Origin: a virus
Length of the DNA: 37,508 nucleotides
IMG/VR virus record: IMGVR_UViG_3300021962_010873
Location: 1-37,508 of that record
Reading direction: 5' to 3' (one strand)
The notes below the pieces were generated by a model that saw nothing but the letters and a program-made list of their open reading frames with translations, did not search any database and was not told the DNA's origin. How positions within the stretch are numbered: the first letter of the stretch is position 1; each line of letters opens with the position of its first letter. Below are positions 4,946 to 34,006 of this stretch, piece after piece. Made by a program: the position numbers and the translations under genes.

Positions 4946-5749
4946 ATGAATACTAATAAAATATCAATCATACTTCCTATCAAATCGGCAAAAGCGATTG
5001 GTTTCGAAGATTTTTTCACAAAAGCAATTACATCTGTAAAATTTCAAAAAGAGTATCTCCAAGAATTAATAATTGTTCATGGTGTAGAAGACGCTTTATC
5101 CAATTTTTTATCGGAGTATAATTTTGAAGACCTAAATGTTCGTTTGGAACCTTGGTCTGATTCACCAAGTTTTTCAAAACAGGTAAACCATGGGGTAGAA
5201 ATTTCAACGGGAGATTGGTGTTCTATTTTAGAGTTTGATGATGAGTACTCTAATATTTGGTTCAAAAACGCAACTAAATATATGTATATTTATAAAGATG
5301 TAGATTGTTTTCTACCTATAGTTGTTGATGTTGATGATAAATTAGTTTTTGCGGGTTTTACAAATGAAGCCACTTTTGCTGCGAATGTTTCGAACGAGAT
5401 TGGTATTTTGACAAATGAGACTTTACAGACCTTTCAAAATTTTCAAATTTCAGGTATGGTTTTCAGTAAAGAAAAATTCTTGGAATTTGGTGGTTTGAAG
5501 TCTAACTTAAAGTTGACATTTGGGTATGAGTTATTTTTAAGACTTACTTTCAATTCATTGAAGATTATGACAATTCCTAGAATTGGATATAAACATATGA
5601 ATTTGAGAGAGGGTTCTATTTTTTGGAACTACAAAAATGGGGACGACAAAATGTCTCAAGATGAGGCAAAATTTTGGATTGAATCCGCAAAAAAAGAGTA
5701 TTTCTACAACAATGACAGAGAAATAAAATATGAACCCCAAGATATTTAA
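4946..5749 (+). CDS. Family 2 (GT-A) glycosyltransferase-like protein
   Basis: A 267-residue protein with the N-terminal beta-strand KISIILPIKSAKA typical of family 2 transferases. Next come LIIVHGVED, the substrate-loop region ISTGDWCSILEFDDE (about 86-100) whose FDDE is the likely metal-binding DxD equivalent, and a helix with GGLKSNLKLTFGYELFLRL (about 177-195) matching the catalytic-base region. The fold assignment is fairly strong; donor and acceptor are unknown. The gene begins 2 nt after the GT-B gene and its stop overlaps the sigma-factor start by one base, so the glycosylation cassette reads straight into the late sigma gene. Confidence 0.75.
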   Translation: MNTNKISIILPIKSAKAIGFEDFFTKAITSVKFQKEYLQELIIVHGVEDALSNFLSEYNFEDLNVRLEPWSDSPSFSKQVNHGVEISTGDWCSILEFDDEYSNIWFKNATKYMYIYKDVDCFLPIVVDVDDKLVFAGFTNEATFAANVSNEIGILTNETLQTFQNFQISGMVFSKEKFLEFGGLKSNLKLTFGYELFLRLTFNSLKIMTIPRIGYKHMNLREGSIFWNYKNGDDKMSQDEAKFWIESAKKEYFYNNDREIKYEPQDI

Positions 5750-6492
5750 TGTCGGAAAATGAAACAGTTATTATAGTAGAAAAGAAAAAGAAAGGTAGAA
5801 AACCAACAACAAATAATTATTTTGACGAAAGAGAAGAGACAGCGGTAAAATTATTTTTGGTAGCAGAAACTCACGAAGAAAAAAATAAAATTTATAATGA
5901 GTTTTTAAGAGAACCTTTAGATAAAATGATATCTTCAATAATTAGAAGGTATAAATTGTACAGGAAGGATATGAATTACGAAGAAATTCATGTTGACACC
6001 CACTCCTTTCTTATGACAAAAATTGATAAGTTTAAGCCTTCCAAAGAGAAGAAGGCTTATTCTTATTTTGGTACAATATGTAAAAATTATTTGATGGGTC
6101 AAATAATGAAAGATCAGAAGGAAATGAACCGAAAAATATCATACGAAGATATTTCATCTGATTTGTCAAATAGACCAGATTTTTCATATACCATAGACCA
6201 AGATGATGTTAATTCTGAAATCATAATAAAAAAATTTTTAGAAAGATTAAGAGTAAACCTAGAAGAATCTAATGAGAATGATCAGGAACAAAAATTAGGA
6301 TCCGCAATTTATGACCTTTTTGAAAATTACAATTTAATTTTTCCCGATAGTAACAATAATAAGTTTAATAAAAACATCATATTATTCGAGCTTAGGGAAA
6401 TGACAAATTTATCAACCAAAGAAATTAGAACTTCCATCAAAAAATATAAAAAAATGTATTTTGATTTAGTACAAGAATTATTGAAAGATTAA
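5749..6492 (+). CDS. gp55-like late-transcription sigma factor
   Basis: A 247-residue protein resembling T4 gp55, the minimal sigma factor that directs host RNA polymerase to late promoters. A Lys-rich start (EKKKKGRKPT) is followed by a sigma region 2-like block at about 84-125: YEEIHVDTHSFLMTKIDKF, then KKAYSYFGTICKNYLMGQI, where the aromatic, Gly-containing helix contacts core polymerase and the -10 region. The C-terminal helices (about 205-247) could contact the core flap. It stands between the glycosylation operon and the virion genes. The recurring RTATTTAT motif described at many virion genes here is the natural candidate for its recognition sequence, which is an inference. Confidence 0.8.
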   Translation: MSENETVIIVEKKKKGRKPTTNNYFDEREETAVKLFLVAETHEEKNKIYNEFLREPLDKMISSIIRRYKLYRKDMNYEEIHVDTHSFLMTKIDKFKPSKEKKAYSYFGTICKNYLMGQIMKDQKEMNRKISYEDISSDLSNRPDFSYTIDQDDVNSEIIIKKFLERLRVNLEESNENDQEQKLGSAIYDLFENYNLIFPDSNNNKFNKNIILFELREMTNLSTKEIRTSIKKYKKMYFDLVQELLKD

Positions 6493-12103: not shown

Positions 12104-12955
12104 ATGGCATTAGTAACTTATTTAGTAGCCCCGTGTAGTGGGGGATCGACATCGAATATAGATTTCAGCGGATCTTCGTTACCCGTTGTAGGCGGCAATT
12201 ATTATCTAAATTCCACAGGTGGAACAATAATAGGTTGTTATGAAATTGTAGATACTGCAGAACCAGGAACTGGATCAGATGCGGTATTAACATTAGGAAC
12301 AAATTACGGTGACTGTTCTGCATGTTTAGCAGCAAATCCAACTCCAACCCCAACTCCAACCCCAACAAACACACCAACAGTTACTAAAACACCAACTAAT
12401 ACACCTACAAATACACAAACACCTTCTATAACACCTTCCCAAACAGTTACTAAAACACCTACTAATACACCTACAAATACACAAACTCCATCCAACACAC
12501 CCACTAAAACTCCTACTAATACCCCAACACCAACAGGAACCGCTTCGGTAACACCAACACCATCAGTTACTAAAACTGTTACACCAACAAATACACCAAC
12601 AAATACTGTAACACCATCAATTACATCAACTAAAACACCAACCCCTACAGTAACACCAACTAATACCTTAACACCAACTACAACACCAACTACAACACCA
12701 ACTAACACACCAACTGTCACTAAAACCCCGACGAATACCCCAACACCAACAAACACTCCTACCCCTTCATTTACGCCAGGATATGTAGTAACGGCAGGAA
12801 CTGCTTACGAGGAATGTTTAGTATGTTATAATCTTACCGGTAACACTGTTAGTTCAGTTGCCGTTCCACATCCAGTGTGGTCTAATAATCAAGGTATTGC
12901 AGTTGCACAGATGGGAGCAGTTCAACTTGGTGGAATGAATGGGTTAAATAGTTAA
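12104..12955 (+). CDS. Thr/Pro-repeat virion surface protein
   Basis: A 283-residue protein in three parts: an N-terminal ~75-residue domain with several Cys ([19 protein letters not shown]), a ~145-residue low-complexity linker made of [14 protein letters not shown] units, and a C-terminal ~60-residue domain ([28 protein letters not shown]). The linker has no bulky residues and would be an extended, flexible stalk with many possible O-glycosylation sites. The shared segment [10 protein letters not shown] is also present in the short protein next to the terminase gene. The start is chosen from the late motif 11 nt upstream. A fibre or capsid-decoration role is plausible but inferred. Confidence 0.7.
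12340..12771 (+). repeat. Tandem low-complexity repeats coding for Thr/Pro stalk
   Basis: DNA repeats built on ACACCAAC/ACACCTAC units. A ~40-bp block beginning TTACTAAAACACC occurs at 12381 and again at 12447, a 66-bp (22-codon) period, with further diverged TTACTAAAAC copies near 12566. Period multiples of three keep the frame, so recombination could change stalk length. Confidence 0.85.
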
Positions 12956-15711: not shown

Positions 15712-17655
15712 TTATCTCAATTCTCTTAAATCGAATGTTCTAACTCCATCAACCGTGATACGACCATAGAAACGGTTGTTAACCATTTTCTTAGCGTATC
15801 TTGTCATAATACCTTTGATAGGTGTAAAGTTGAATGGGTTGTACATTGTAGGTGTCAATTGTAGTGGTACATACGGTGCGTAGATGTAACCTGTGTCTAA
15901 CAATGATGTTCCTTTGTGACCGATTAACACTTGGTTAGGCGGGAAGTAAGGATCACGGTAAACTTGGTAACGACCTGAAAGTGTACCTACTCTTTCGATA
16001 CCCATGTTGTATTGATCTTGCTCAGGAGCCGCGTTAGATACATGGAAGTATTCTAAATCGTCAAAGATTGCAGAAACCTCAGATGATACAACGATCCAGT
16101 TAGCACCACCACGAAGAGTTGACTTGTGGATTTGTGCAGACAATTGGTTGATTGCTGTGATCAAAGTTTGGTTCCAATCTTTCTGAGTGTAAGAAACTTG
16201 GTTGTTGATTCTTCTCCATCCGTTGTAATCCCAACGAAGGTTCCAAGCTGCACCTTTTCTCAAGTCACGAAGGATTTCACGGTCGATCTCAGCTGCTACT
16301 TGTTCTGACAACAATGCTGTCAATTCAGCTTCAGCATCGATGTTGTGGAATGCTGCCACATCTTGAGCTAATTCAGGAGACCATTGTGCTCTTAGTTTTC
16401 TTTCTGTAACAGATACAGTTACTGACTCAAGGTCAAAAGAAACCTCACCTATTTGGTCTTCAAATTCAAGGTTAGCATATCTTCTATACCATGCGATGAA
16501 TGATGAACCTGACGCCGCCGCTGTAATAGTAGTACCTGTGTAACCATCTAAAGATGATGCATCACAGTCAGCACATACAGGACAAGATAAGTCTACTTCT
16601 AAATAAATACAACCGTTTTGGTCACAGATATCATTATAGTTACCACCGTTACCAGTGTTAGTTCCTGTTGCATTACCTGAGTTACGGAATACAGTTGCTG
16701 TATTTGTAGAAGTTGGTTGTACAATTCCTTTACCGTAGATTTGAGTAACTACTCTAAACAATAATGGAGTGTAAACAGTTGATCCGTTGTACGATGTTGT
16801 AAGTACATTACAAGGAGTTGTAGAAGCTGTAATATTTGATGTACCATAGATTCTCAAATCAGATAAGAAAGATTCTGTATCCATTTCGTTTCCGTCAGGA
16901 CCAATTAATTTTCCTGTACCTGCGTTTGCAAATCCACATAACTTCATAAGTACTTTTCTGTAGTTATTAGCAGGAATCTCAAGACCATCTGTAGGTGTTC
17001 CTTGTGCAATACTTGCATCTACAAGTTCTGAACCAGCCCAAGCTTGGATGGTGGTGTTAGCTGTTACAGCAGTCCACTTACCTTTTGAATAGTCAAATAA
17101 TCCTGGAGGATCTAAACTAGCTTCGTTTCCTTCGTAGAATAAATCGTACAAATCTTTTTTATACGGATAGTTAGGTTGTTCAGCTCCTGGATAACCTTGG
17201 TTAGGATTTCCATTTGGGTTGTTAGGTGATCCTACAGGCGCGTAGTGTTCTCCACCTGCATCTTGAACATCAGTTTGAGGGTATCCATTAGCCAATAATG
17301 AATCTGCGTTTGAATATCCTTGGATTCTTGGTACAAAGTAGAACAATTTACCGATAGGTAAGTTCATAGCTTGTACTGATACGATGTCATTTGCTAACAA
17401 TTTAGAGAATACTCTTCGTACAATCGGGAAAACAACTGTTTCAAACGCTCCGTTAGAAGTTCCGTCTGAAGTTGCTTCGTTGATTAAGAAAGATGCTTGG
17501 TTCTCATATAATTGAGCGACATTTTCTTTAAGGTGACCTCTTAGACCATCTAAAAAGCCTAATTTGTCCCATTTGTTAATTGTGTCTTCTTTGATAACTT
17601 TTAGGTGTTTTAACCCAATGTTACCAACAAGACCTGATTCTAATAATGCTCCCAT
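15712..17655 (-). CDS. Major capsid protein (gp23-like)
   Basis: A 647-residue T4 gp23-type capsid protein. A ~60-residue N-terminal prodomain ends in FLINE|ATS (Glu60), a good match for prohead-protease cleavage and close to Glu65 in T4 gp23. Typical family segments are FETVVFPIVRRVFSKLLAND, SFDLESVTVSVTERKLRAQW, HNIDAEAELTALLSEQVAAE, GANWIVVSSEVSAIF and the C-terminal MTRYAKKMVNNRFYGRI. It is longer than T4 gp23 because of an inserted region (about 120-380) with a cysteine cluster at 344, 349, 358, 361 and 364. It lies right after the scaffold gene, as in T4. Eight A residues stand directly before the ATG and no Shine-Dalgarno is present. Confidence 0.93.
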   Translation of the reverse strand: MGALLESGLVGNIGLKHLKVIKEDTINKWDKLGFLDGLRGHLKENVAQLYENQASFLINEATSDGTSNGAFETVVFPIVRRVFSKLLANDIVSVQAMNLPIGKLFYFVPRIQGYSNADSLLANGYPQTDVQDAGGEHYAPVGSPNNPNGNPNQGYPGAEQPNYPYKKDLYDLFYEGNEASLDPPGLFDYSKGKWTAVTANTTIQAWAGSELVDASIAQGTPTDGLEIPANNYRKVLMKLCGFANAGTGKLIGPDGNEMDTESFLSDLRIYGTSNITASTTPCNVLTTSYNGSTVYTPLLFRVVTQIYGKGIVQPTSTNTATVFRNSGNATGTNTGNGGNYNDICDQNGCIYLEVDLSCPVCADCDASSLDGYTGTTITAAASGSSFIAWYRRYANLEFEDQIGEVSFDLESVTVSVTERKLRAQWSPELAQDVAAFHNIDAEAELTALLSEQVAAEIDREILRDLRKGAAWNLRWDYNGWRRINNQVSYTQKDWNQTLITAINQLSAQIHKSTLRGGANWIVVSSEVSAIFDDLEYFHVSNAAPEQDQYNMGIERVGTLSGRYQVYRDPYFPPNQVLIGHKGTSLLDTGYIYAPYVPLQLTPTMYNPFNFTPIKGIMTRYAKKMVNNRFYGRITVDGVRTFDLRELR

Positions 17656-17687: not shown

Positions 17688-19211
17688 TTATTTTATTTTA
17701 CCCATTAAATCCTTCATTCTTAAGAATTGCGGATTCTCATAAGTTTTTGATTCAATCAAGTTAACCGCCGATCCTGATTCAACAGTTTTATTAACAGTTC
17801 TCTCAATTGATTCGTTTATTTTTTGTTCTGATGATGAACTACCTGTATTCAATTCAGATTTGATAGTTCTGTACAGATTTTTTGATTCCTTTAAAGACTC
17901 AACATTATCGAATCTTCTAAGAATGTTTATTTTTTCTTGTTTAGTTGTAGAATGCTCAGTGAACAATCTAGTCGCATATGCCAAATTGGAGTTGAAAATT
18001 GCAACTTCGTTCAGTTTGGTTCTGAAAACATCAAGAGCTTTTTTGTATTCTTCATTTTTTTCTCTCAACATCTCAACTTGTTCATTAACTCTAGTATTAG
18101 GTCTTTGTCTAATTTCTTTTCTGTTAATGTTTTGATCTGAACCTTTTCTATTACCAACTTTGTTAGCTCTAGTATAACTGTTAGTACGAACCGCCTCTTT
18201 TGTTTCCATTTTTTTGGCTTTCATCTTAGCGTGTAGATCTTCCTCTTTATATTCAAACTTGGCTTTTCCTGTACCCATTGCTTTAGTACCTTTACCGAAC
18301 GCTTCTTTTTTCTTAGTGTCAAATCCGCGATCCATGTTAGGTCTTTTATCGTAACTAAATTTAGGTCCCTTTCCAATTCCAACACCTTTAGGTTTCATAG
18401 ATTTTTTTACAGCTTCCATAACGGCATCCAAATCATAATCTGAATCGTCGTCCTCATCCATAGGGAAATTACTCATCATGTCATCGTCATCTTCTTCCAT
18501 ATAAAGATCACCCATGTCATCGTTATCTTGATCATCCATTGCGATTTCATAAACAACTTCATCTTCATTATCATCCATGTACATGTCTTCGTTTAAGTCA
18601 TCCTCAACATTATCCATATACATATCTTCATACAAGTCGTCGTTATCATCAACTTCAATTTCATACATCAAATCTGAATCATAAGCCATATTTTCACCGA
18701 ATTCATCAGTGTACTCTTCAGCGTCAATATCATAACCTTCGATGTCTGATTCTCCTAATTGGATCATATACTCATCTTCACCATCAGTTAAGTGGATATT
18801 CTCACCGTCTTTTTTGACAATAATACCATCCTCGTCACCCATAGCTTTGAAAACTTTCAAAACCTCTGCATCTGATGCTCCAGTCATGTCAATAGTTTCA
18901 TCATCATCCATTGCCATGTCGTCATCATCCATTGCCATGTCGTCATCATCCATTGCCATGTCGTCATCATCCATTGCCATGTCGTCATCGTCCATTGACA
19001 TTTCATCATCGTCCATTGCCATGTCATCGTCATCAGGTGTTGGTTCTTCAATCTCATCTTCATCTTGTTCTCTCAGAGATTCTTTTACCAGTTGTTTGAT
19101 TTCTTCACTCATAGTAGACTGAAGTATTCCTTTTGCATTCTCTTGAAGAGTCTCCTCCAAATTCTTGATTTGGAAAAGAGCATCTTCTACTACATTTTTG
19201 TTGTAACTCAT
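17688..19211 (-). CDS. Prohead scaffold/core protein (gp22-like)
   Basis: A 507-residue very acidic protein located between prohead protease and capsid genes, the place of T4 gp22. N-terminal helices (VVEDALFQIKNLEETLQE; IKQLVKESLRE) are followed by a run of heptads of the DDDDMAM type (about 60-105), more acidic segments to ~260, a basic stretch (280-370; KPKGVGIGKGPKFSYDKRPN) and a helical C-terminal coiled-coil region (about 375-507). Scaffold proteins form the transient inner core and are degraded by the prohead protease. Function comes from position and composition rather than a conserved motif. Eight A residues stand directly before the ATG. Confidence 0.8.
   Translation of the reverse strand: MSYNKNVVEDALFQIKNLEETLQENAKGILQSTMSEEIKQLVKESLREQDEDEIEEPTPDDDDMAMDDDEMSMDDDDMAMDDDDMAMDDDDMAMDDDDMAMDDDETIDMTGASDAEVLKVFKAMGDEDGIIVKKDGENIHLTDGEDEYMIQLGESDIEGYDIDAEEYTDEFGENMAYDSDLMYEIEVDDNDDLYEDMYMDNVEDDLNEDMYMDDNEDEVVYEIAMDDQDNDDMGDLYMEEDDDDMMSNFPMDEDDDSDYDLDAVMEAVKKSMKPKGVGIGKGPKFSYDKRPNMDRGFDTKKKEAFGKGTKAMGTGKAKFEYKEEDLHAKMKAKKMETKEAVRTNSYTRANKVGNRKGSDQNINRKEIRQRPNTRVNEQVEMLREKNEEYKKALDVFRTKLNEVAIFNSNLAYATRLFTEHSTTKQEKINILRRFDNVESLKESKNLYRTIKSELNTGSSSSEQKINESIERTVNKTVESGSAVNLIESKTYENPQFLRMKDLMGKIK
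18898..19036 (-). repeat. Tandem 21-bp repeats in scaffold gene
   Basis: About six 21-bp units, written on the + strand as CATCCATTGCCATGTCGTCAT, code for heptads of the DDDDMAM type. Adjacent copies are almost identical at DNA level, so the array is recent or actively homogenised and can change length in frame. Confidence 0.9.
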
Positions 19212-19559: not shown

Positions 19560-20288
19560 TTATTTGTTTAAATAATCGGACAATCTATTCATTAAGTCAA
19601 GCGATTTGGCACCCGTTTCTCCAACATGTCTTTGAGCTTGTACCTTTTTTTCTTCGTCAAGATTTTCCTCATACTTTAGTCTTTCATCTTTATCCCTAAA
19701 CAAATATGCTCCTGGTGTGGATGGTGAGGATACCAAGTCAAAACAAATTAATTCAAAATCATCCTGTACTTCATTTTGTTCACCAACTTTTTTAAGTGAT
19801 CCTACACCACGAGAAGAAATACCTAATGTAACCCCCTGACGAAGATAGTTTGCCGCTAAGTCACCTTTTGTAGACACAATACCCCTTTCATGAAAACCCG
19901 GACTTGTAAGTAATTTCAATTTACCTAATAATACAGGACCTTCCCACCATATATCGGTAATTGCATGTGAGACACGATCAAGATCTATAAGTGAAGACTC
20001 AGGGTGATTTAATTCAGAAAGAGCCGTTCCCTTTTGAATCATTTTTTTATAGTTCTCAGCTTCTCTTTTTAATATCTTTTCAGGGTAGATTCTTCCGTTT
20101 CTATTTGGTGTATTATATTTTTGAAGTACGGCATAAAACTCAAACGGTTTTGAGTGATCTAACATATCACGATTTTCTCTAATCATTGATAGATTTCTTC
20201 TTTCATTCGGGTCTATATAACCAGCATCGTACTCAACAAGGATTCCACGACCTGAATCTCTTGGTCCTAATATTTTTAAATCGCTCAT
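19560..20288 (-). CDS. Prohead protease (gp21-like)
   Basis: A 242-residue serine protease of the T4 gp21 / herpesvirus assemblin fold. The family block KYNTPNRNGRIYPEKIL is at about 57-73. The catalytic His is His95 in LSELNHPESS and the nucleophile is Ser158 or Ser159 in TLGISSRGVGS. FDLVSSPSTPGAYLF (about 184-198) is a further signature. It would cleave scaffold, capsid prodomain and internal proteins after (L/I)-x-E; matching sites are visible in the capsid protein and in two leader-bearing proteins of this window. Its position between core-like genes and the scaffold is that of T4 gene 21. Confidence 0.9.
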   Translation of the reverse strand: MSDLKILGPRDSGRGILVEYDAGYIDPNERRNLSMIRENRDMLDHSKPFEFYAVLQKYNTPNRNGRIYPEKILKREAENYKKMIQKGTALSELNHPESSLIDLDRVSHAITDIWWEGPVLLGKLKLLTSPGFHERGIVSTKGDLAANYLRQGVTLGISSRGVGSLKKVGEQNEVQDDFELICFDLVSSPSTPGAYLFRDKDERLKYEENLDEEKKVQAQRHVGETGAKSLDLMNRLSDYLNK

Positions 20289-20303: not shown

Positions 20304-20311
20304 ATAAATAC
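20304..20311 (-). promoter_or_regulatory. RTATTTAT motif, putative late promoter
   Basis: GTATTTAT on the minus strand, 15 nt before the prohead protease ATG at 20288. Confidence 0.45.
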
Positions 20312-20778
20312 TAAATAGTTTCAGTTTCTTTCTTTATAGGTTTTTGATTTCCGTTTTTTGTCAAATAAAATTTGAAGTATTTGTTTTTACTCAAAACATC
20401 TCCATATACTGATTTTACTAAATTTTTGATTTGTTTTTTTAAGAATGGGGATTTGAAATCCATTGGTTCTATCAAAAATAAATTTATTTCTAAATTCATG
20501 AATGATTTTTTCTTAACTTGTAACCCGCTAGTCCTGAGGTCTAAATCGACAATAAATTTTGTGTCGAAAGTTTGTTTGTTTATGTTTTCTAAAACTGAGT
20601 GTTTAACACTTCTTGTCATGTTCAAAACGACTCTGTTCCAATTTTCAATTTCTTCTTTTGGTTCTACCCAAGTTTGGATATTTAAAAAAATTGATTTTAA
20701 ATTTGTGGCATCTATTGTACCAAATTGGGATTTAAAGGATCGATATCCATTTAATTTGACCGTTTTTCCTTTTTTCAT
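20311..20778 (-). CDS. Hypothetical protein in head module, 155 residues
   Basis: A basic protein with alternating beta-strand patterns (VDLDLRTSGLQVKKKSFMNL, EINLFLIEPMDF). No family is recognised. It lies between the probable core protein and the prohead protease, on the same strand, so a role in head assembly is likely by position. No late motif is seen upstream; the divergent region to bS21 contains a palindrome instead. Confidence 0.65.
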   Translation of the reverse strand: MKKGKTVKLNGYRSFKSQFGTIDATNLKSIFLNIQTWVEPKEEIENWNRVVLNMTRSVKHSVLENINKQTFDTKFIVDLDLRTSGLQVKKKSFMNLEINLFLIEPMDFKSPFLKKQIKNLVKSVYGDVLSKNKYFKFYLTKNGNQKPIKKETETI

Positions 20779-20828: not shown

Positions 20829-20831
20829 ATT

Positions 20832-20839
20832 ATATTTAT
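20832..20839 (+). promoter_or_regulatory. RTATTTAT motif before bS21 gene
   Basis: ATATTTAT, 19 nt before the ATG at 20859, preceded by a nested palindrome. Confidence 0.45.
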
Positions 20840-20858
20840 ATCAACAATCTTAAAATTA

Positions 20859-21047
20859 ATGTTATTAGTAGAAGTAAAAAAAGGTAATATAGAAAAAGCC
20901 ATTAAGGACCTCAAAGGAAAATTAATTAGAACCAAACAAAACGCTTTGCTTTTTGAAAGAAAGGAATTTGTAAAAAAGTCTGTTATAAAAAGAGAACAGA
21001 AGAAAAAAGCGACTTATATTCAAAAGTTGAAATCATCAAATGATTAA
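20859..21047 (+). CDS. rpsU: Ribosomal protein bS21 homologue
   Basis: A 62-residue protein matching the Bacteroidota form of bS21: MLLVEVKKGNIEKAIKDLKGKL with the family spacing, then ERKEFVKKSVIKREQKKKAT and YIQKL. Family members in the hosts have a similar RQxFxKPSVxKRxQxxKAxYIQxL ending. bS21 binds the small ribosomal subunit near the 3' end of 16S rRNA; in Flavobacterium it helps to cover the anti-Shine-Dalgarno, and a tyrosine near position 54 is important there. Tyr53 here is at the matching place. The gene lies alone on the + strand inside the head module, shares its stop with the convergent gene (TTAA), and has a late-type motif upstream. Confidence 0.87.
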   Translation: MLLVEVKKGNIEKAIKDLKGKLIRTKQNALLFERKEFVKKSVIKREQKKKATYIQKLKSSND

Positions 21048-21760
21048 AGACCTTCATTAAGGTTTTTTAATTTAAAGTAATTAATTTCAGAAAAAGATTC
21101 TTTTTGTAGTTTTTCCATAACTTGCTCAATCGTTTTGATTGTCTCGGAATCATTTTCTTTATTTTTTCTTTCCGAAAGTTTTTCTAAAACTGTTTCTTTT
21201 TCTCTATTGTAATTTTCGTTGATCTGGTCTTTTGGTATTTTCAAAAGATTTACCAATTCTTTTTTTTCACCTTCATTTAGTGAGGAAATAAAATTTTCAA
21301 TAGTTTTATTTGCAACTTTGACCATAGTTTTTAGAGGAACCTTTATTGGTTGGTTTAAAACACTTTCTTCAGTTTTAGATAAATTTTCAATTAAAATTTT
21401 TTTACTTTTTATCTTATTCTCAAGAGTCAAAATATTTGATGAAAAAAGATTATCTATTTCAGAGTATTTGTTTGGGGTTTGGACATGTCCTACCCACATT
21501 TTGAGTTCTTTAATTTGAAAAGGTTTAATTTTATTAATCAAGTTTTCATAAGCGACAATAGATTCATTAATGAATTCGTTGGCCACAGATTCTGATAAAC
21601 CCTTTTTACCTGATAATTCATCATATAAAAAAAATACTTTAGAAATATTTTTATTTTTCAAAATAAGTTGTTCAAATACAAACAAGTCCTTTTTGAGATT
21701 ATTTTTCTTATAAGATTCTACTAAATAAGTTTCTATTTTTGATTTAATTTCTCCAAACAT
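21044..21760 (-). CDS. Probable prohead core protein, 238 residues
   Basis: A Lys/Glu-rich, nearly all-helical protein (long stretches such as SETIKTIEQVMEKLQKES) located between portal and protease, where T4 has the core genes 67 and 68. The N-terminus MFGEIKSKIETYLVES ends in LVE|S, a possible prohead-protease site. No direct sequence match to T4 gp67/68 is seen, so the call is by position, composition and the possible cleavage site. It converges on the bS21 gene with overlapping stops. Confidence 0.6.
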   Translation of the reverse strand: MFGEIKSKIETYLVESYKKNNLKKDLFVFEQLILKNKNISKVFFLYDELSGKKGLSESVANEFINESIVAYENLINKIKPFQIKELKMWVGHVQTPNKYSEIDNLFSSNILTLENKIKSKKILIENLSKTEESVLNQPIKVPLKTMVKVANKTIENFISSLNEGEKKELVNLLKIPKDQINENYNREKETVLEKLSERKNKENDSETIKTIEQVMEKLQKESFSEINYFKLKNLNEGL

Positions 21761-21798: not shown

Positions 21799-23622
21799 TT
21801 ACTCACCAAGTAGTCTTGATAATTCGTCTTCTACTTCACCTAATGAGTCATTCATTCTTCGAAAATCTAAAAATTCGTCATCATCGAAATCATCATCTTT
21901 AGATTCCAAAATCAGTTTATTTTTATCTCTTCTTACTGATTCAGGAATTGGTGGGGCTCCTCCGGCCTCAGGTCCTGGTGGTGGAGGTGGACTTCCCGCT
22001 TCCGGTGGTGGACCGCCAGGTGATGGTGGTGCTCCTCCCGCTTCGGCTCCTGCGGTTTGGGTTCCTCCTGTGACTGTTTTATACAACTTATCAACCGTAT
22101 CAAATATACCTGTATGAGTAACGATTGTTGCGGTGTTGTCTAACTCTGCAGAAACCGCTCTTTCCATTCTGATTTGTAATAAATCATTTTTAATTTCATC
22201 GTCCGAAAAACCAAAAATATGTTTTTTAGCCCAAGTCGCAGATACTGCTTGGATCGATTTAGGAATTTCTGCAACCATGTCTTTATACAAAGTCATTTTT
22301 GTTTGCCATACCTCAACACCTAATAAATCTGCTTGTTTTGACGGATTAGTTAATTGAAGAGTAAAATTAGATAATTCATCTTCAAACCCTAACAAGAACA
22401 GGTGAATAATTGCGATTTTATTCATTTCTGCAATTGCCGATTTTTGGATTCTATTGATCGTTCTTGCAAAACGAATATCCAATAACGATAAGTTTTTACC
22501 ATCACCGACAGGTTCTTCAAAACCCAAATACGCCTTGGGTATACGAAGAGCAGTTACCAATTTCTTTTGGATATATTCGATATCTGCAATCTCCGATAAA
22601 TTCTGAGCTCCAGGTAAAGTATCAATAGGACTTGCTTGTGCAACATCTCTTACAGGAATGAAGTAATCTTGGTCAACAGCCATTTGATTGAATCTCAAAT
22701 CTACATTTCCTGTATTTTTATCAACAACTTGATCTCTTTTGAATTTGTTTGCAACTCTTTGTACATATGGTTCAACATCTTTATCGTCCATGTTACCAAC
22801 ATAAACTTTAAAAACCCTTCTTTCAGGTGCTCGTGATGTTCTATAGATTAACATTGCATCTTCAGATAAAACTAATTGTTTCCAAATACGACGGGCCTTT
22901 TCTAACATTGATGTACCATAAGGAAGTTTTCTATCGTCACCTAATAATCTGAAATGGGCAACCTCCCATGTGTTGAATTCCGCATCTCTTGCTTTCCATG
23001 CGAATTTTAAAGCCTTTCTATTCAAGTTCATAGTAGCCTGAAAGGTTCTTGAGTCCATTCCTCTTTCTAATCTTTCTATCTCAATGTTTGGAAGTTGTAA
23101 ACATCCTGTAACTCCTTTTTCAGGGTCTAATTTCAAATAAACAAAGTTATCTCCATACTTACACATGTTTCTAATCCACATAGGTAAGTTAGTATTAATA
23201 TCTAAGGTATTAACAAACAAATCAACCAAAATACTTTTAATTCTCTTTGATTCTGAATATACTTGTAATACATAACCGTTTTGATCAGGAGTTGTAGATT
23301 CCTCTGCATATATATCAAGGGCGGTAGAGATCTCAGGAGTATACTCCATAGATTCATAATCGTAAAATGCCGCTAATCTTGTAGGTTCATAATATACTGC
23401 TTGAGTGTACAAATTATTTTCAACCTTAGCCCAATTTGTACTCAGATATAAAGACTGTTGATTTTGCAACTTAGCCTTTTCATATTCGGCCTTACTTTGG
23501 GTTTTAAGTATTTCAGTTTTATCTAACTTATAATCAGGTTGTCCCTGACCCAATGTTGAGTTAGGTCCAAAAGTTTGGGCCAATCTTTGCCAAACAGTTA
23601 GATTTTGATTGTTGTTTTCCAT
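21799..23622 (-). CDS. Portal protein (gp20-like)
   Basis: A 607-residue T4-like portal, the 12-fold ring through which DNA enters the head. Family features include YYEPTRLAAFYDYESMEYTP near residue 80, a run around 100-125 (LDIYAEESTTPDQNG), AHFRLLGDDRKLPYGTSMLE, RRIWKQLVLSEDAMLIYRTS, the RRVFKVYVGNM strand and DTLPGAQNLSEIADIEYIQK. The C-terminal ~85 residues contain a Pro/Gly/Ala-rich tract (GGAPPSPGGPPPEAGSPPPP) not expected in T4 and possibly a flexible tail. It follows the terminase and a short Thr/Pro protein on the same strand, and has its own upstream late-type motif. Confidence 0.9.
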   Translation of the reverse strand: MENNNQNLTVWQRLAQTFGPNSTLGQGQPDYKLDKTEILKTQSKAEYEKAKLQNQQSLYLSTNWAKVENNLYTQAVYYEPTRLAAFYDYESMEYTPEISTALDIYAEESTTPDQNGYVLQVYSESKRIKSILVDLFVNTLDINTNLPMWIRNMCKYGDNFVYLKLDPEKGVTGCLQLPNIEIERLERGMDSRTFQATMNLNRKALKFAWKARDAEFNTWEVAHFRLLGDDRKLPYGTSMLEKARRIWKQLVLSEDAMLIYRTSRAPERRVFKVYVGNMDDKDVEPYVQRVANKFKRDQVVDKNTGNVDLRFNQMAVDQDYFIPVRDVAQASPIDTLPGAQNLSEIADIEYIQKKLVTALRIPKAYLGFEEPVGDGKNLSLLDIRFARTINRIQKSAIAEMNKIAIIHLFLLGFEDELSNFTLQLTNPSKQADLLGVEVWQTKMTLYKDMVAEIPKSIQAVSATWAKKHIFGFSDDEIKNDLLQIRMERAVSAELDNTATIVTHTGIFDTVDKLYKTVTGGTQTAGAEAGGAPPSPGGPPPEAGSPPPPPGPEAGGAPPIPESVRRDKNKLILESKDDDFDDDEFLDFRRMNDSLGEVEDELSRLLGE

Positions 23623-23673: not shown

Positions 23674-23964
23674 TTATGTTCTTCCGCTAGATGGGGTAAC
23701 CGTAGGTGTTACTGTCGGGGTAAATGATGGTGTGGGTGTTACTGTTGGTGTAAATGATGGTGTAGGAGTATTAGTTGGGGTAAGGGTCGGAGTTTGACTT
23801 GGTGTTAATGTTGGAACTATATCAGGATTCAAATCAATTGGTGCCGATCTTTTTCTTGTGAAAATTGGTTGTGTCAGTTTGGATCCCGTAGTTGGTTGTC
23901 CATTTACAATCAATCTTGACCCGTTTGCTATTCTACCCGATCTTGGTCTTAAGTTCAGTCCCAT
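23674..23964 (-). CDS. Short Thr/Pro-tailed protein, 96 residues
   Basis: The start is taken as the ATG at 23964, 2 nt after the terminase stop (MGLNLRPRSGRIANG); an upstream in-frame ATG at 23994 lies inside the terminase gene. The first half is basic with Gly and Ser. The second half is a Thr/Pro low-complexity tail ([20 protein letters not shown]) like that of the 283-residue protein at 12104, with [10 protein letters not shown] in common. The tails probably descend from a common repeat. Placement between terminase and portal suggests a late virion-associated protein; function unknown. Confidence 0.7.
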   Translation of the reverse strand: MGLNLRPRSGRIANGSRLIVNGQPTTGSKLTQPIFTRKRSAPIDLNPDIVPTLTPSQTPTLTPTNTPTPSFTPTVTPTPSFTPTVTPTVTPSSGRT

Positions 23965-23966
23965 CT

Positions 23967-25745
23967 CTATTTTATTAAACCTCCAAATAACCAACCATAT
24001 GTTTGATAATCATTTTTAGTTGGTCCGTTATTATGTAATCCTGCCCTTTCTCTTAAAACATTTTGATTTGGTATTACAGGATCAAAATGTGTCTCTTTAC
24101 CCACAGATTCGTTATTTACAATTGCCCAAGAATCGATCATTGATTTTGCCTGTTCGGTCGCTTTTTCTAATTTTGAAAATGAGGATTCTGCGATGTATAT
24201 TGCCATAGAAATTCCCATAATCAAGTCATCGTGTTGACCTTTTTGGTGGTCAGGTCTTCCATTGATATAAACAAATGTGTTCATCTCATTATATAATCTG
24301 ACACTTCTAATTTTGAATTTGTGCCTTACCCATTCTTCGAAAGCTGCGATAATTTGAACTCTTTTATTATTAAAATTTATTCCTGGAATTTTTTCTGAAG
24401 ATGATTTATTTACCGCCCAAATATTAAACGGGTCTATACCATCGACATATAAATTTTTATAACCCAATTCTTGCATTTTTCTAACAGTGGTAATACCCAT
24501 ACCACCTGTTATATCGACAACAACAAAAGAGTTATACATGATTCCCCATTTATACGCAACCTCAGCCAAAGTATCTGGTGGGATTTTTCCTACATACTCG
24601 AAAACTTGTTCTCTCTCATCGAAATCAATTATTTGTATGGACGAGAAATCCTCACTATCTCCTCGAGAAACATCTATACCCATAATGTATTTGTGACCTT
24701 CAACTGGTTCTTTCCAAATCCATATAGAGTTACCCATAAGTTTAGTTGTAGGTTCCAAAAGAGAATTACTTTTTATTTCTTCTAATTGTTTGTTATCAAA
24801 AACATTGTCTCCTGAACCTAAAAACTCGCAATTTAACTCTTGGTTTATTTTTCTTTTATCATATTTTAATTTTTTTACCATTTTTTCATACCATGTTGAG
24901 CAAGGTTTGTACCCTCGATTGAAAAAATGTTGTAGTTCTTGATAATCTCTTTTATATGGGTCTATATGTGCGAAAGAAATGTTCTTTGAGTCGTCATATT
25001 CTTCTCTATTAAGTAAATAATGTATTAAATCATCAGTTGGAACCAAATATAAATCTTTAGCATACCTTGGGTCTCTATACCAATACATTTCTGAAATTTT
25101 GAAGTTATTCATTCCCTTCAATGATTGGTCATATATTTCATAATATATTGGGTCGTATCCATTTGGTGTGGAAACGACAATAACTTTACCACCTGTGGAT
25201 AAGGAAGCCATACAAGCCGCCCAAAAATCACTATCGGCCTCAATAAATGCCGCCTCATCAAAAACAAGAATTGTTGGTGTAAATCCTCGAAGTGCATCTT
25301 TTGATGTTGCAACCGCCTTAACTTCCGATCCGTTGTTGAGCTTATAATGTCTTTGTGAATTTTTTTCCGCAGCAAATCCTGCTCCGACCCAATTTGGCCA
25401 TTGGTCAACAAACGCTCTTATTTTGTTTGCCATCTCCATAGAGGTGTCTAATTTGTTGGCAATTATAAGAATCTTTTCAGGTTGATTTTTCTTTGCAAAC
25501 ACCAATCGTTTTGAGATCCAAGCTGCGGTTACAGTTGAAACTCCAGCCTGTCTATATTTCAGGGCAATATTTTCTTCAAATTCTTCATAATCACTTAGTA
25601 AGGAAATTTGGTCGGGAAATAATTCCAAAGGAACATAACGAGATACAGTATTATCGTATGTCTGAAGATATGTTCTCAGAGCGTATGGAGTATCGGACAT
25701 ACATCTCGCATACTCAATTAAAACTTGTTCTTTAGTTAAACCCAT
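23967..25745 (-). CDS. Terminase large subunit (gp17-like)
   Basis: A 592-residue DNA-packaging motor with ATPase and nuclease domains. The Walker A-like loop is YRQAGVST at 64-71, where T4 has SRQLGKTT, so the usual P-loop lysine is replaced by valine. Walker B with catalytic Glu is ILVFDEAAF (159-167), and the coupling motif is VVSTPNG. The nuclease domain shows GIDVSRGDSEDFSSIQIID as first acidic cluster, VVVDITGGMG as second and GQHDDLIMGISMAIY as third. Length and order agree with T4-like large terminases. It follows an upstream gene group on the same strand and has a late motif only 5 nt before the ATG. Confidence 0.93.
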   Translation of the reverse strand: MGLTKEQVLIEYARCMSDTPYALRTYLQTYDNTVSRYVPLELFPDQISLLSDYEEFEENIALKYRQAGVSTVTAAWISKRLVFAKKNQPEKILIIANKLDTSMEMANKIRAFVDQWPNWVGAGFAAEKNSQRHYKLNNGSEVKAVATSKDALRGFTPTILVFDEAAFIEADSDFWAACMASLSTGGKVIVVSTPNGYDPIYYEIYDQSLKGMNNFKISEMYWYRDPRYAKDLYLVPTDDLIHYLLNREEYDDSKNISFAHIDPYKRDYQELQHFFNRGYKPCSTWYEKMVKKLKYDKRKINQELNCEFLGSGDNVFDNKQLEEIKSNSLLEPTTKLMGNSIWIWKEPVEGHKYIMGIDVSRGDSEDFSSIQIIDFDEREQVFEYVGKIPPDTLAEVAYKWGIMYNSFVVVDITGGMGITTVRKMQELGYKNLYVDGIDPFNIWAVNKSSSEKIPGINFNNKRVQIIAAFEEWVRHKFKIRSVRLYNEMNTFVYINGRPDHQKGQHDDLIMGISMAIYIAESSFSKLEKATEQAKSMIDSWAIVNNESVGKETHFDPVIPNQNVLRERAGLHNNGPTKNDYQTYGWLFGGLIK

Positions 25746-28571: not shown

Positions 28572-29309
28572 TTATTGATTCATTGATAGTTTTTTATCAA
28601 TAATTTCCGTAGGTATGTCATATAATTTTTCGACATATCCGTTTCTTCTGAGTAATTTGAATACTAAATTTTCCAAAGACATTTCCCCACCTTTTTCCAA
28701 ACCACAATTCCTAAAATTTTTTAATTTGTCCTTATATTTCTTAACTATTTCTTTGATTTCATCAGGTTCCTCATCTTCAATATTATCCACAACCCCGTCA
28801 ATGATTCTCATCCACTGTTTTGCTTTTTCTTTTAATAATTCTTGATCGACTTGTTTGGTAGATTGTTTTTTTGGTTCATTAACCCACATATCATAAAGGA
28901 TGGAATAAATACCACTACTAAAGGTTGTTTCATCTTCTTTTTGGACAAAACATTCAACATCGTAACCAAATAATTTTATATTATGCTTCTGATTAAAAAT
29001 AATTTTTTTTAAATCAAAAAATTCAAGGTAAAGTTCTTTTGAGCTTTCAGGAAATTGATTGAAGTTGACAACTATGTGTAGATCAATATCGGAAAATTTA
29101 GACCAATTATAATTTACTAGAGATCCAATCATGATTATATCGGTCACCACGACATCAACCCCTAAAAAGTCTATAAAAAGATTTGAAATTTCTAATAATT
29201 TTTCTCTTACTTCTGGTTTCATAGTATATGAACCATTATTCTCCTCCCAAATTTTGGGATTCAAATCTTCTTTCGCGTCAAAACTTTTTATAATTTCAGC
29301 ATTATTCAT
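28572..29309 (-). CDS. Nucleotidyltransferase-fold protein, 245 residues
   Basis: The motif GSLVNYNWSKFSDIDLHIVV (residues 62-81) is the signature of the DNA polymerase beta-like nucleotidyltransferase fold: GS, then two aspartates (Asp74, Asp76) that bind metal. A third acidic residue may lie in YDVECFVQKED near 115. Family members add nucleotides to RNA, antibiotics or proteins; toxin MNT-type and tRNA-modifying forms also exist. No HEPN partner is visible next to it. It belongs to a line of late minus-strand genes and has a late motif 4 nt upstream. The substrate is not known. Confidence 0.75.
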   Translation of the reverse strand: MNNAEIIKSFDAKEDLNPKIWEENNGSYTMKPEVREKLLEISNLFIDFLGVDVVVTDIIMIGSLVNYNWSKFSDIDLHIVVNFNQFPESSKELYLEFFDLKKIIFNQKHNIKLFGYDVECFVQKEDETTFSSGIYSILYDMWVNEPKKQSTKQVDQELLKEKAKQWMRIIDGVVDNIEDEEPDEIKEIVKKYKDKLKNFRNCGLEKGGEMSLENLVFKLLRRNGYVEKLYDIPTEIIDKKLSMNQ

Positions 29310-29931: not shown

Positions 29932-31800
29932 TTATTTCACTTCTTCAAATTCAACATTTTGGAAGTCTTCGTCTGTTACCTCATCATTTGGAGTTGTCTG
30001 ATTTGTTTGTTCATATAACTTTTGGCTCACTTCTTGGAATTTTTTGTTAACTTCTTCCATTAAAGATTTAACTTCAGAAATTTCTTTTTTATTATAAGCT
30101 TCTTTTAATTTTTCGATTTTTGAGTTAATATCAGACTTTTCATCTTCACTAATTTTACCTTCAAGATCCTCCATTGATTTACTAACTTGAAACATTAAGG
30201 AGTCCGCCGAGTTTAAAGTGTCAACATCCTCTTTGAGTTTTTTGTCTGCCTCAGCATTCATTTCAGCCTCTCGTTTCATTCGTTCAACTTCTTCTTTTGA
30301 CAAACCTGAAGATGATTCGATTCTAATTGATTGAACTTTGTTGGTTGCTTTGTCCACTGCCGATACATTGATGATTCCGTTTGCATCGATATCAAAGGTT
30401 ACCTCAATTTGAGGAGTACCTCGTCTAGCGGGTGGAATTCCATCAAGGTTGAATTTACCGATTGTTCGGTTGTCTTTAGCCATGGCTCTTTCTCCTTGTA
30501 ACACATGGATCTCAACTGTTGGTTGATTATCAGCGGCGGTTGAGAATACTTCTGATTTTTTTGTTGGGATTGTTGTGTTTGCGTCAATCAATTTTGTGAA
30601 TACACCACCCATAGTTTCGATACCCAACGACAATGGAGTAACATCCAACAACAATACATCAGTTACATCACCTGCCAATACTCCCCCTTGGATTGCAGCA
30701 CCCAAAGCAACTACCTCATCAGGATTCACCCCTTTTGATGGTTCTTTTCCGAAGAATTTTTTAACCGCTTCCTGAATTGCAGGAATACGAGTTGATCCAC
30801 CAACCAAAATAATTTCATCAATATCACTCGGTTTAAGTTTTGCATTTTTTAAAGCTGACTCACAAGGTTTAATTGTTCTGTCAACCAAAGATTGTGTCAA
30901 CTGATCAAATTTAGATTTTGTAATTGTCATTACAAGGTGTTTTGGTCCTGTTGAGTCTGCAGTCACATAAGGAAGATTAATTTCAGTTTGTGGAGAAGAA
31001 GACAACTCAATTTTAGCTTTTTCAGCTGCTTCACGAAGTCTCTGAAGTGCCATAGGATCTTTTGAAATATCCATTCCATTGTCTTTTTTAAATTCTGAAA
31101 CTAAATGATCGATCAGAGCTTGATCGAAGTCATCTCCACCAAGGTGAGTGTCACCATCAGTTGCAAGCACCTCAAATACACCATCCCCAAGTTCCAAAAC
31201 GGATACATCGTGTGTTCCACCACCACAGTCAAACACAACAATTTTCATGTCCTTAGACATTTTATCAAGTCCGTAGGCTAAGGCCGCGGCAGTAGGTTCG
31301 TTAATGATTCGTTTAACTGTTAAACCAGCAATTTCACCAGCTTCTTTCGTTGCTTGTCTTTGTGCATCATTAAAGTAGGCAGGAACTGTAATAACCGCTT
31401 CTGTAACAGATTGACCTAAATAGTCTTCAGCGGTTTGTTTCATTTTTTGGAGAATTGCCGCTGAAATTTCTTGTGGTGAATATGTGCGGTCTTCTATTTT
31501 TACTTTTGGTGAATTATTTTCTTTCACCATTTTGTATGGGACTTTACTTGTTTCGTTTTTAACCTCATCGAAAGAGCTTCCCATAAATCTTTTAATTGAG
31601 TAGATAGTTTTGTCAGGGTTTGTAACCGCCTGTCTTTTGGCAGGATCTCCGATTTTTCTTTCACCATCTTTTATGAACCCAACAATTGATGGTGTAGTTC
31701 TTTTTCCTTCACTGTTAGCAATTACAACTGGTTCTTTACCCTCCATCACTGCAACACATGAGTTAGTTGTACCTAAGTCAATTCCAATAATTTTTCCCAT
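29932..31800 (-). CDS. dnaK: Hsp70 chaperone DnaK
   Basis: A 622-residue full-length Hsp70. Its ATPase domain starts [16 protein letters not shown] (5-20), with phosphate loop [15 protein letters not shown] (about 194-208) and [13 protein letters not shown] further on. The linker [15 protein letters not shown] and the substrate-binding domain follow. The C-terminus ends NVEFEEVK, close to the usual EEVD-like acidic ending of eukaryotic forms but not identical. The sequence looks like a Bacteroidota DnaK along its whole length, suggesting transfer from a host. Neither DnaJ nor GrpE is in this window, so host co-chaperones are probably used. It has a host-type promoter and is divergent from clpC. 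Confidence 0.96.
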
Positions 31801-31895: not shown

Positions 31896-31917
31896 GAAGT
31901 ATTTTGTCATTTTGTCA
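31874..31917. promoter_or_regulatory. Palindrome and tandem repeats in dnaK/clpC control region
   Basis: TGACAA-T-TTGTCA (31874-31886) is a perfect 13-bp palindrome. Its half-site returns in two adjacent identical 8-mers, TTTTGTCA (31902-31909 and 31910-31917). The arrangement in a divergent promoter region is what one expects of binding sites for a regulator of both genes. Confidence 0.5.
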
Positions 31918-31966
31918 AAAATGGACTTTTTATTTTCTTATGATTAATATTTGTAAAAAGAAAAGT

Positions 31967-34006
31967 ATGTTAGAATTTATGGATGAAAATAACGATAAAG
32001 TAAAGAAGAAAAGTGATAGTGGAACTCCTGTATTAGATAATTTCAGTAAGGATTTAAACAAACTCGCACAAGAGGGTAAATTAGACCCTGTTATTGGGAG
32101 AAAAAAAGAAATATTAAGGATTGCTCAGATCCTTTCAAGAAGAAAGAAAAATAACCCTATTATTATCGGTGAACCTGGCGCTGGTAAGACCGCAATTGTA
32201 GAGGGACTTGCAATGATGATTCATAATGGTGAATGTCCCAAAAATTTAATGGACAAAAGAATCGTTTCATTAGAGATGAATTCATTAGTTGCGGGAACTA
32301 AATATCGTGGTCAGTTTGAAGAACGAATGAAAGTTATAATTGAGGAACTTCAAGCAGCCCCGAACATCATTTTATTTATCGATGAGATACACACTATTGT
32401 AGGTGCCGGTAACAGTTCAGGATCTTTAGATGCGTCGAATATTTTCAAACCAGCACTTTCTCGAGGTGAAATTCAGTGTATCGGAGCAACTACATTAGAT
32501 GAATACCGTACAAATTTTGAAAAAGATGGGGCTCTTGAAAGAAGGTTCCAAAAAGTTGTTGTTGATCCTGCAACAAAAGATGAAACATTCGAAATTCTCA
32601 AATTAAGTAAATCCAAGTACGAGGATCATCACAAAGTAACTTATGATGACAACACTTTGAAAACTTTTGTTGAGCTGGCGGATCGTTATATTACTGATCG
32701 TGAATTCCCTGACAAAGCTTTTGATATATTAGATGAGGTTGGTGCAAGAATGCAAATTGACATTAAACTCCCACAGGAAATTGAAGATTTAAAAGAAGAA
32801 GCTAATAAAATCAAACAAGAAAAACTTGATGTAATTAAAAGACAAGATTATGAACAAGCGGCAGAACTTCGTGATCGTGAAAGAAGTGTTCTTGCAAAAT
32901 TGGAAGAGGAAAAGAAAAAATTTGAGGAACATTTGCGTAGTAGCAAAAGAACAATTCCTGAAGAAGTAATTTATGAAGTTGTTTCTAATATGACAAAAAT
33001 TCCAATTTCAAATATTAATGTTGATGAGAGAAATAGTCTTATCAGTTTAAATGATAATTTGAATTCAAAAGTGATAGGACAGGAACAAGCCGTAAATAAA
33101 ATTTCAAAAGCTATTCGTAGAAACAGAATGGGGATCAAAGATCCAAACAAACCAATTGGTTCGTTCATCTTTTTGGGATCTACAGGTGTTGGTAAAACAT
33201 ATTTAGCAAAACAATTGGCTAAAGAAATCTTTGGTAGTGAAGATAATATGATTCGTGTGGACATGAGTGAATATCAAGAAAAACACACAATTTCTCGTTT
33301 GATTGGTTCACCTCCAGGGTATGTTGGTCATGATGAAGGAGGTCAATTGACTGAACAAGTAAAAAATAAACCTTATGCTGTTGTATTATTCGATGAGATT
33401 GAAAAGGCACATAAAGATATTTTTTCTACACTACTACAGTTATTAGATGATGGTCATATTACAGATTCATTAGGTCGTAAAATTAACTTTAAAAACTGTT
33501 TGATCATTATGACTTCAAATATTGGAGTGAAAAGACTACAGGACTTTGGGACAGGCGTTGGCTTCAAAACAACTAAAAGTGAAGTTGTGATGGAAGAGGA
33601 AAAACAAGAGGTTTTGAAAAAAGAGTTGAAGAAGTTTTTTGCACCTGAATTCTTAAATCGTATTGATGATGTTATTATTTTCAATTCTTTAGAAAAGTTA
33701 CACATCGATAGTATTACCAAACTCGAGGTTGACAAGTTGTTGAACCGAGTTTTGGAAAAACATTATGTATTCACCTACGAACAGGAACTTATTGATTACA
33801 TCTCCAAAGTAGGATTCGATGAAACATTTGGGGCTCGACCAATCAAAAGAGCAATCCAAGACAAAATCGAAGACCTTATTTCAGAAAAAATCTTAATGAT
33901 GGAGATTGAAGAAAATAAAGAGTATGTCATCAAAGTTGAAAATGATGAAGTCGTAGTTTCTAATAAAGAAGAAAAAGTCAAAAAAACAAGAAAAAAGAAA
34001 GATTAA
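31967..34006 (+). CDS. clpC: ClpC-like AAA+ unfoldase without N-domain
   Basis: A 679-residue double-ring Hsp100 ATPase. The start is set at the ATG at 31967 (MLEFMDENND); the longer frame from 31904 uses TTG and crosses the control region. Walker A1 is GEPGAGKT (68-75), Walker B1 ILFIDEIH (135-142), Walker A2 GSTGVGKT (404-411) and Walker B2 VLFDEIEKAH (473-482). A short middle region holds a UVR-type motif, DYEQAAELRDRER (294-306), as in ClpC and unlike the long ClpB propeller. TGVGFKTT (529-536) carries a VGF loop like the one by which ClpC docks on ClpP. The substrate-binding N-domain is absent. No clpP is in the window. Confidence 0.9.
   Translation: MLEFMDENNDKVKKKSDSGTPVLDNFSKDLNKLAQEGKLDPVIGRKKEILRIAQILSRRKKNNPIIIGEPGAGKTAIVEGLAMMIHNGECPKNLMDKRIVSLEMNSLVAGTKYRGQFEERMKVIIEELQAAPNIILFIDEIHTIVGAGNSSGSLDASNIFKPALSRGEIQCIGATTLDEYRTNFEKDGALERRFQKVVVDPATKDETFEILKLSKSKYEDHHKVTYDDNTLKTFVELADRYITDREFPDKAFDILDEVGARMQIDIKLPQEIEDLKEEANKIKQEKLDVIKRQDYEQAAELRDRERSVLAKLEEEKKKFEEHLRSSKRTIPEEVIYEVVSNMTKIPISNINVDERNSLISLNDNLNSKVIGQEQAVNKISKAIRRNRMGIKDPNKPIGSFIFLGSTGVGKTYLAKQLAKEIFGSEDNMIRVDMSEYQEKHTISRLIGSPPGYVGHDEGGQLTEQVKNKPYAVVLFDEIEKAHKDIFSTLLQLLDDGHITDSLGRKINFKNCLIIMTSNIGVKRLQDFGTGVGFKTTKSEVVMEEEKQEVLKKELKKFFAPEFLNRIDDVIIFNSLEKLHIDSITKLEVDKLLNRVLEKHYVFTYEQELIDYISKVGFDETFGARPIKRAIQDKIEDLISEKILMMEIEENKEYVIKVENDEVVVSNKEEKVKKTRKKKD

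Follow-up and report, generated by a model that had tools for sequence, protein, structure and literature searches.

A phage-encoded bS21 that keeps the anti-Shine-Dalgarno-contact tyrosine and lacks the Shine-Dalgarno sequence of host rpsU

Introduction

Why would a phage carry its own copy of a ribosomal protein gene, and why would that copy lack the signal by which the host controls its equivalent? The gene for bS21 is the commonest ribosomal protein gene among phages. The question is raised here by one such gene on a 37.5 kb stretch of viral DNA, referred to below as the window.

Chen et al. reported bS21 in phages of Bacteroidetes hosts, where the gene lies antisense inside a block of terminase, portal, protease and capsid genes and is expressed late, together with the structural genes (Chen et al., 2022; PMC9723584). 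In Flavobacteriales, host messages lack a Shine-Dalgarno (SD) sequence apart from rpsU, an autoregulated gene preceded by an extended SD; phage bS21 is discussed in the same work (McNutt et al., 2023; PMC9976891). In that study, Tyr54 and the C-terminus of bS21 were found to restrain the translation of SD-bearing messages, and the Y54A substitution or loss of the C-terminus raised such translation 3-5 fold with F. johnsoniae ribosomes. Both papers are cited throughout for passages of their main text.

Identity and conservation of the phage bS21

The gene was first read from the DNA letters as encoding a 62-residue, Bacteroidota-like bS21, and this reading was borne out.

20859..21047, + strand: bS21 gene, 62 aa, probably of Bacteroidia type; ATG start, matches to Pfam PF01165 and 7jil_z, member of a supported phage clade

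In a profile search, the window protein scored 31.3 bits with Pfam Ribosomal_S21 (PF01165; E 1.6e-7), above the 27-bit cut-off, and the closest solved chain by sequence was 7jil_z, the F. johnsoniae bS21 of structure 7JIL (E 5.6e-8). With NCBIfam TIGR00030, it scored 24.3 bits, under the equivalog cut-off of 28.95. On the same model, F. johnsoniae bS21 scored 54.7, the close relative L003 20.5 and SD-bearing phage bS21 (see below) 37.0. Given the distance between 54.7 and 24.3, the window protein is best described as a diverged bS21: by sequence it is a bS21 homologue, and the label "equivalog" is unsupported for its branch. Comparison with six close relatives gave dN values of 0.09-0.16 and dS values of 0.7-1.4 (dN/dS about 0.1), a clear sequence signature of purifying selection. 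The predicted model has helices at residues 11-23, 26-35 and 40-61 (mean pLDDT 82), with Tyr53 within helix 3; the matches returned by a fold search with this model were weak (E 0.76 at best), and every one was a ribosomal particle.

Three sets of bS21 served for comparison. The phage set holds 95 sequences, i.e., 96 distinct bS21 less L162, a viral contig left out on account of a bS21 nearly identical to cellular L373/L374. The wider cellular set comprises 91 bS21 genes taken from a sample of 99 genomes that spans the phylum of the host, and the Flavobacterium set comprises 47 bS21 proteins and their rpsU genes. In a tree built on only 64 alignment columns, the phage rows form a single clade (support 100/97), consistent with a single capture; in the same short alignment, this clade is placed beside Bacteroidia-type rows, with weak deep forks.

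The anti-Shine-Dalgarno-contact tyrosine

The original prediction placed Tyr53 at the Flavobacterium residue that contacts the 3' tail of 16S rRNA, and the alignment to 7jil_z agrees: Tyr53 (codon 21015-21017) aligns with F. johnsoniae Tyr54. The position is aromatic in 95/95 distinct phage bS21 sampled (Y 87, F 5, H 3). Of the 91 sequences in the wider cellular set, 66 have R there, 23 have Y and 2 have H; because the position is not fixed across bS21 at large, the tyrosine appears to have been kept from a Bacteroidia-type ancestor. By sequence, the window protein appears to be a Bacteroidia-type bS21, with an aromatic residue at the position that contacts the anti-Shine-Dalgarno (ASD) and that, in ASD-occluding bS21 of this type, stacks on A1534. 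Its retention argues that the phage protein would work as host bS21 does in hiding the ASD. The suggestion that the protein is special through hiding the ASD thus stands insofar as the tyrosine is not generic (66/91 Arg); as a novelty it falls, since passages of Chen et al. already discuss ASD blocking and give Tyr54 in 54/61 Bacteroidetes phage bS21, the others being aromatic (PMC9723584).

A lysine-rich middle segment had been singled out as the other point of difference. The protein does diverge from host bS21, and yet the sharpest change lies at the turn that leads from helix 1 into helix 2.

20928..20939, + strand: codons of the turn R24-T25-K26-Q27, with the K/R-Q found only in phage bS21 (host K-T-G-T/V), from sequence comparison

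In 47/47 Flavobacterium proteins this turn is KTG[TV]; phage bS21 has T-[KR]-Q there or, rarely, S-K-Q. At residues 26-27, [KR]Q is present in 95/95 phage sequences and G[TV] in 47/47 Flavobacterium sequences, and T[KR]Q occurs in 0/91 of the wider cellular set. Besides this fixed replacement of host KTG[TV] by KT[KR]Q in the phage proteins (residues 24-27), positions 20, 22 and 23 have changed. Thr28 is among the four divergent positions given in passages of Chen et al. (PMC9723584).

Genomic setting and host

The bS21 gene lies antisense between two hypothetical genes in a T4-like block that holds the capsid, protease, portal and terminase genes. The main features are as follows.

15712..17655, - strand: major capsid protein, T4 gp23-like (PHROG 138, E 9e-66)
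19560..20288, - strand: prohead protease (PHROG 207, E 6e-43), with TATTTAT at 20304-20310
20311..20778, - strand: conserved hypothetical, divergent from bS21; match in 237/243 loci, always on the opposite strand
21044..21760, - strand: conserved hypothetical, convergent with bS21, stop codons overlapping; match in 231/243 loci, always on the opposite strand
21799..23622, - strand: portal protein (PHROG 213, E 4e-65)
23967..25745, - strand: terminase large subunit (PHROG 5989, E 6e-25)

Structural genes were found at 242/243 related loci (a count in which some contigs appear twice), all on the strand opposite bS21. The nearest isolates are the Flavobacterium phages immuto (terminase 25%, capsid 40% identity), in which a bS21 match was not found, and the best INPHARED TerL matches are below 30% identity. 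Because these nearest terminase and capsid isolates are Flavobacterium phages, the host is probably a Bacteroidota bacterium. The 37.5 kb window holds no tRNA genes.

Several other features of the window were recorded. Between capsid and protease, the gene at 17688-19211 (-) encodes an acidic tandem repeat (MAMDDDD) and is a probable scaffold, with no PHROG match. Thr-Pro-rich repeats of the TPTNTPT type occur in the predicted proteins 12104-12955 (+) and 23674-23994 (-), the latter lying between portal and terminase and having a TTG start. A full-length DnaK (Hsp70; 29932-31800, -), a ClpA/ClpC-type AAA+ unfoldase (31904-34006, +) and an M20/M42-type peptidase (34054-35091, +) adjoin one another. 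A candidate terminator after bS21 (21049-21070) was rejected: it is a weak hairpin that recurs in 12/93 relatives (5% expected by chance) and in none of the nearest ones, and a stricter scan found no terminator after the window bS21. Strong hairpin and T-run terminators do follow bS21 directly in one branch (L163, L167, L168, L172, L177 and L178) and are missing from the window's nearest relatives.

A promoter-like motif shared with structural genes

20831..20842, + strand: promoter-like motif TATATTTATATC upstream of bS21, the same as before structural genes
5749..6492, + strand: probable late sigma factor resembling gp55, by a weak match of residues 57-181/247 to PHROG 234 (late sigma transcription factor; E 4.4e-4)

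TATTTAT stands within 40 nt before 14/37 window genes, bS21, portal, protease and terminase among them, against 0.47 expected from random positions (30-fold enriched). The T4-type TATAAATA on the coding strand was rejected as the motif, ATAAATA preceding 3/37 genes (0.56 expected) versus 14/37 for TATTTAT. Among viral bS21 upstreams, TATTTRT is present in 71/97, versus 2% of random 36-mers, and in another large bS21 branch 5-6 nt separate the variant TATTTGT from the ATG. In relatives, TATTTAT precedes the protease in 60/60 distinct upstreams, the convergent hypothetical in 68/68, the portal in 26/40, the terminase in 8/47 and the capsid gene in 0/58.

These patterns suggest that TATTTAT acts as a late promoter, from which messages with very short leaders would start. 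The product of 5749-6492, which has no Pfam match, is a candidate reader of the motif. Together, the weakly matched gp55-like factor and the enriched, strand-oriented motif point to a candidate late regulon in a phage of Bacteroidota, for which TATTTAT would offer a simple marker. A literature search found no paper on TATTTAT as a late motif in Bacteroidetes phages.

The missing Shine-Dalgarno sequence

20843..20858, + strand: short SD-less stretch from the motif to the bS21 start; 16S-tail pairing -1.1 kcal/mol

Pairing with the 16S tail (GAUCACCUCCUUUCU) was scored over the 25 nt before each start. Flavobacterium rpsU starts pair strongly (n=47; median -21.1 kcal/mol, weakest -18.4), whereas phage bS21 starts have a median of -1.1 kcal/mol, with only 3 genes at or below -8. 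The window bS21, at -1.1 against the median of -21.1, lacks the extended SD of the feedback-controlled Flavobacteriales rpsU. In the wider cellular set, 14/23 bS21 genes of the aromatic type score at or below -8 kcal/mol. By sequence, what is missing is the very SD that drives host rpsU feedback, and it is absent in all but 3 phage bS21 genes. The passages cited here from PMC9723584 and PMC9976891 hold no statement of this contrast between phage bS21 and host rpsU.

The three exceptions, L076, L186 and L188, each score -12.2 kcal/mol with the SD AAAGGAGG and fall within the SD-less phage clade in the tree; SD absence is therefore not obligatory. In these genes, the SD lies downstream of the promoter-like motif, and they offer a natural comparison for feedback control.

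As had been noted at the outset, window genes start behind A-rich sequence (A makes up 51% of positions -20..-1), and hardly any of these start sites has an SD. The SD of the gene at 28572-29309 (AGGAGGT, -12.2 kcal/mol) was considered as a conserved exception and rejected, being kept in 0/10 relatives; located upstream of TATTTAT, it may be outside the mRNA.

Function of the phage bS21

With about even confidence, we propose that a substitute bS21 is supplied by the phage late in infection, that its synthesis escapes the host feedback loop, and that it keeps the ASD hidden. In such a scheme, the protein would be produced together with the capsid and packaging genes and would join the host 30S subunit, replacing or supplementing host bS21. 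Tyr53 would hold the 3' tail of 16S rRNA in place on the platform, and ribosomes would thereby remain suited to SD-less initiation. In the host loop, bS21-lacking ribosomes translate the SD-bearing rpsU; the phage gene, having no SD, would stand outside it. Host rpsU translation should stay low, since the phage product would hide the ASD. Support comes from the identity of the protein, the aromatic residue in 95/95 phage sequences, the antisense synteny at 242 loci, the SD contrast, the TATTTAT motif shared with structural genes, the gp55-like protein and the low dN/dS. Published support lies in late bS21 expression (PMC9723584), the effect of Y54A (PMC9976891) and the entry of HTVC008M bS21 into ribosomes (PMC6375957). 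The activity of the substituted ribosome cannot be assumed, because E. coli ribosomes that carried pelagiphage bS21 showed only about 5% activity in vitro (PMC6375957).

A stronger form, in which the protein acts as a feedback-blind substitute that hides the ASD, leaves host rpsU repressed and is translated from a late message that lacks an SD and has no need of bS21-free ribosomes, is possible but on balance doubtful. If it were true, the phage would take over the bS21 pool without triggering compensating synthesis by the host; a counter-defence of this kind was speculated upon by McNutt et al. (PMC9976891). The loss of the SD could also be a by-product of a single capture placed behind a phage promoter with a short leader, with no selection for escape from feedback. 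This reading, which we rate as somewhat short of an even chance, is compatible with the protein function proposed above and departs from that account only in how the SD loss is to be understood. The single phage clade is consistent with one capture, almost no gene in the window has an SD, and a TATTTGT ending 5-6 nt before the ATG, as in one large branch, would leave no room for one. However, L076, L186 and L188 show from within the SD-less clade that the leader can carry an SD, and the functional consequence, an absence of feedback, would hold whether selected or not.

The original prediction went further on one point, proposing that replacement of host bS21 would bias ribosomes towards SD-less phage messages. 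The tyrosine gives no ground for such a bias: SD sequences are lacking from host messages too (PMC9976891), and a hidden ASD would accordingly treat phage and host mRNA alike. The observations of the original prediction are confirmed and its interpretation is partly supported. A different route to selective translation was proposed by Chen et al. from structure mapping, in which the diverged N-terminal helix and turn near the mRNA path would cause substituted ribosomes to favour phage transcripts (PMC9723584). The concentration of fixed divergence at residues 20-28, with the KT[KR]Q-type turn in 95/95 phage and 0/91 wider cellular sequences, speaks for it; nevertheless, phage and host starts are both SD-less with no known separating feature, and ribosomes with phage bS21 were mostly inactive in E. 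coli (PMC6375957), so that we regard it as unlikely. The same activity of about 5% with pelagiphage bS21 could instead point to host shut-off, the phage protein poisoning or slowing initiation of most messages. That assay paired a mismatched host with another phage lineage, and the window gene sits among late structural genes that need high translation, with late co-expression in PMC9723584; shut-off is accordingly quite improbable. Strict antisense placement at 242 loci and stop codons overlapping those of the convergent gene might suggest a non-ribosomal role, in which the protein or the antisense position regulates phage RNA. Strong purifying selection and the retention of residues that contact the ribosome, the aromatic at 54 among them, make this the most improbable of the readings considered.

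Comparison with known systems

A phage bS21 with the tyrosine, in an antisense setting, is already published (PMC9723584), and the finding as first written is a rediscovery. The window shares with the bS21 myoviruses of Chen et al. (clades a-e) the gene neighbourhood, the antisense bS21 between two hypotheticals in the TerL/portal/protease/MCP block, Tyr54, a bS21 of probable Bacteroidetes type and chaperone and Clp genes, which passages of that paper report as chaperones and Clp protease in bS21 phages. Its GC content (32.5%) is within their range. It is a 37.5 kb fragment, in contrast to the whole genomes of 293-331 kb of that lineage, which were delimited by a TerL criterion of at least ~70% similarity and encode no other ribosomal protein. 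Added here are the aromatic residue in 95/95 sequences, the single clade with its K/R-Q signature, the missing SD and the TATTTAT before bS21; the passages cited here from PMC9723584 mention neither of the last two.

The bS21 of Pelagibacter phage HTVC008M (Mizuno et al., 2019; PMC6375957) is likewise phage-encoded, and its entry into ribosomes was demonstrated. It represents a separate capture from an alphaproteobacterial host, and its ribosome assay was in E. coli only. Closer to the window protein is F. johnsoniae bS21 (7JIL; PMC9976891), which resembles it in length, three helices, the ASD-contact tyrosine and the core of the C-terminal helix. The two share about 40-48% identity and differ in the turn, where the phage has KT[KR]Q for KTG[TV]. 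Unlike F. johnsoniae rpsU, the phage gene lacks the extended SD, and the promoter-like motif replaces the host TAnnTTTG element. The combination of a kept ASD-hiding residue and a lost SD thus offers a concrete test in the F. johnsoniae rpsU reporter and Y54A system.
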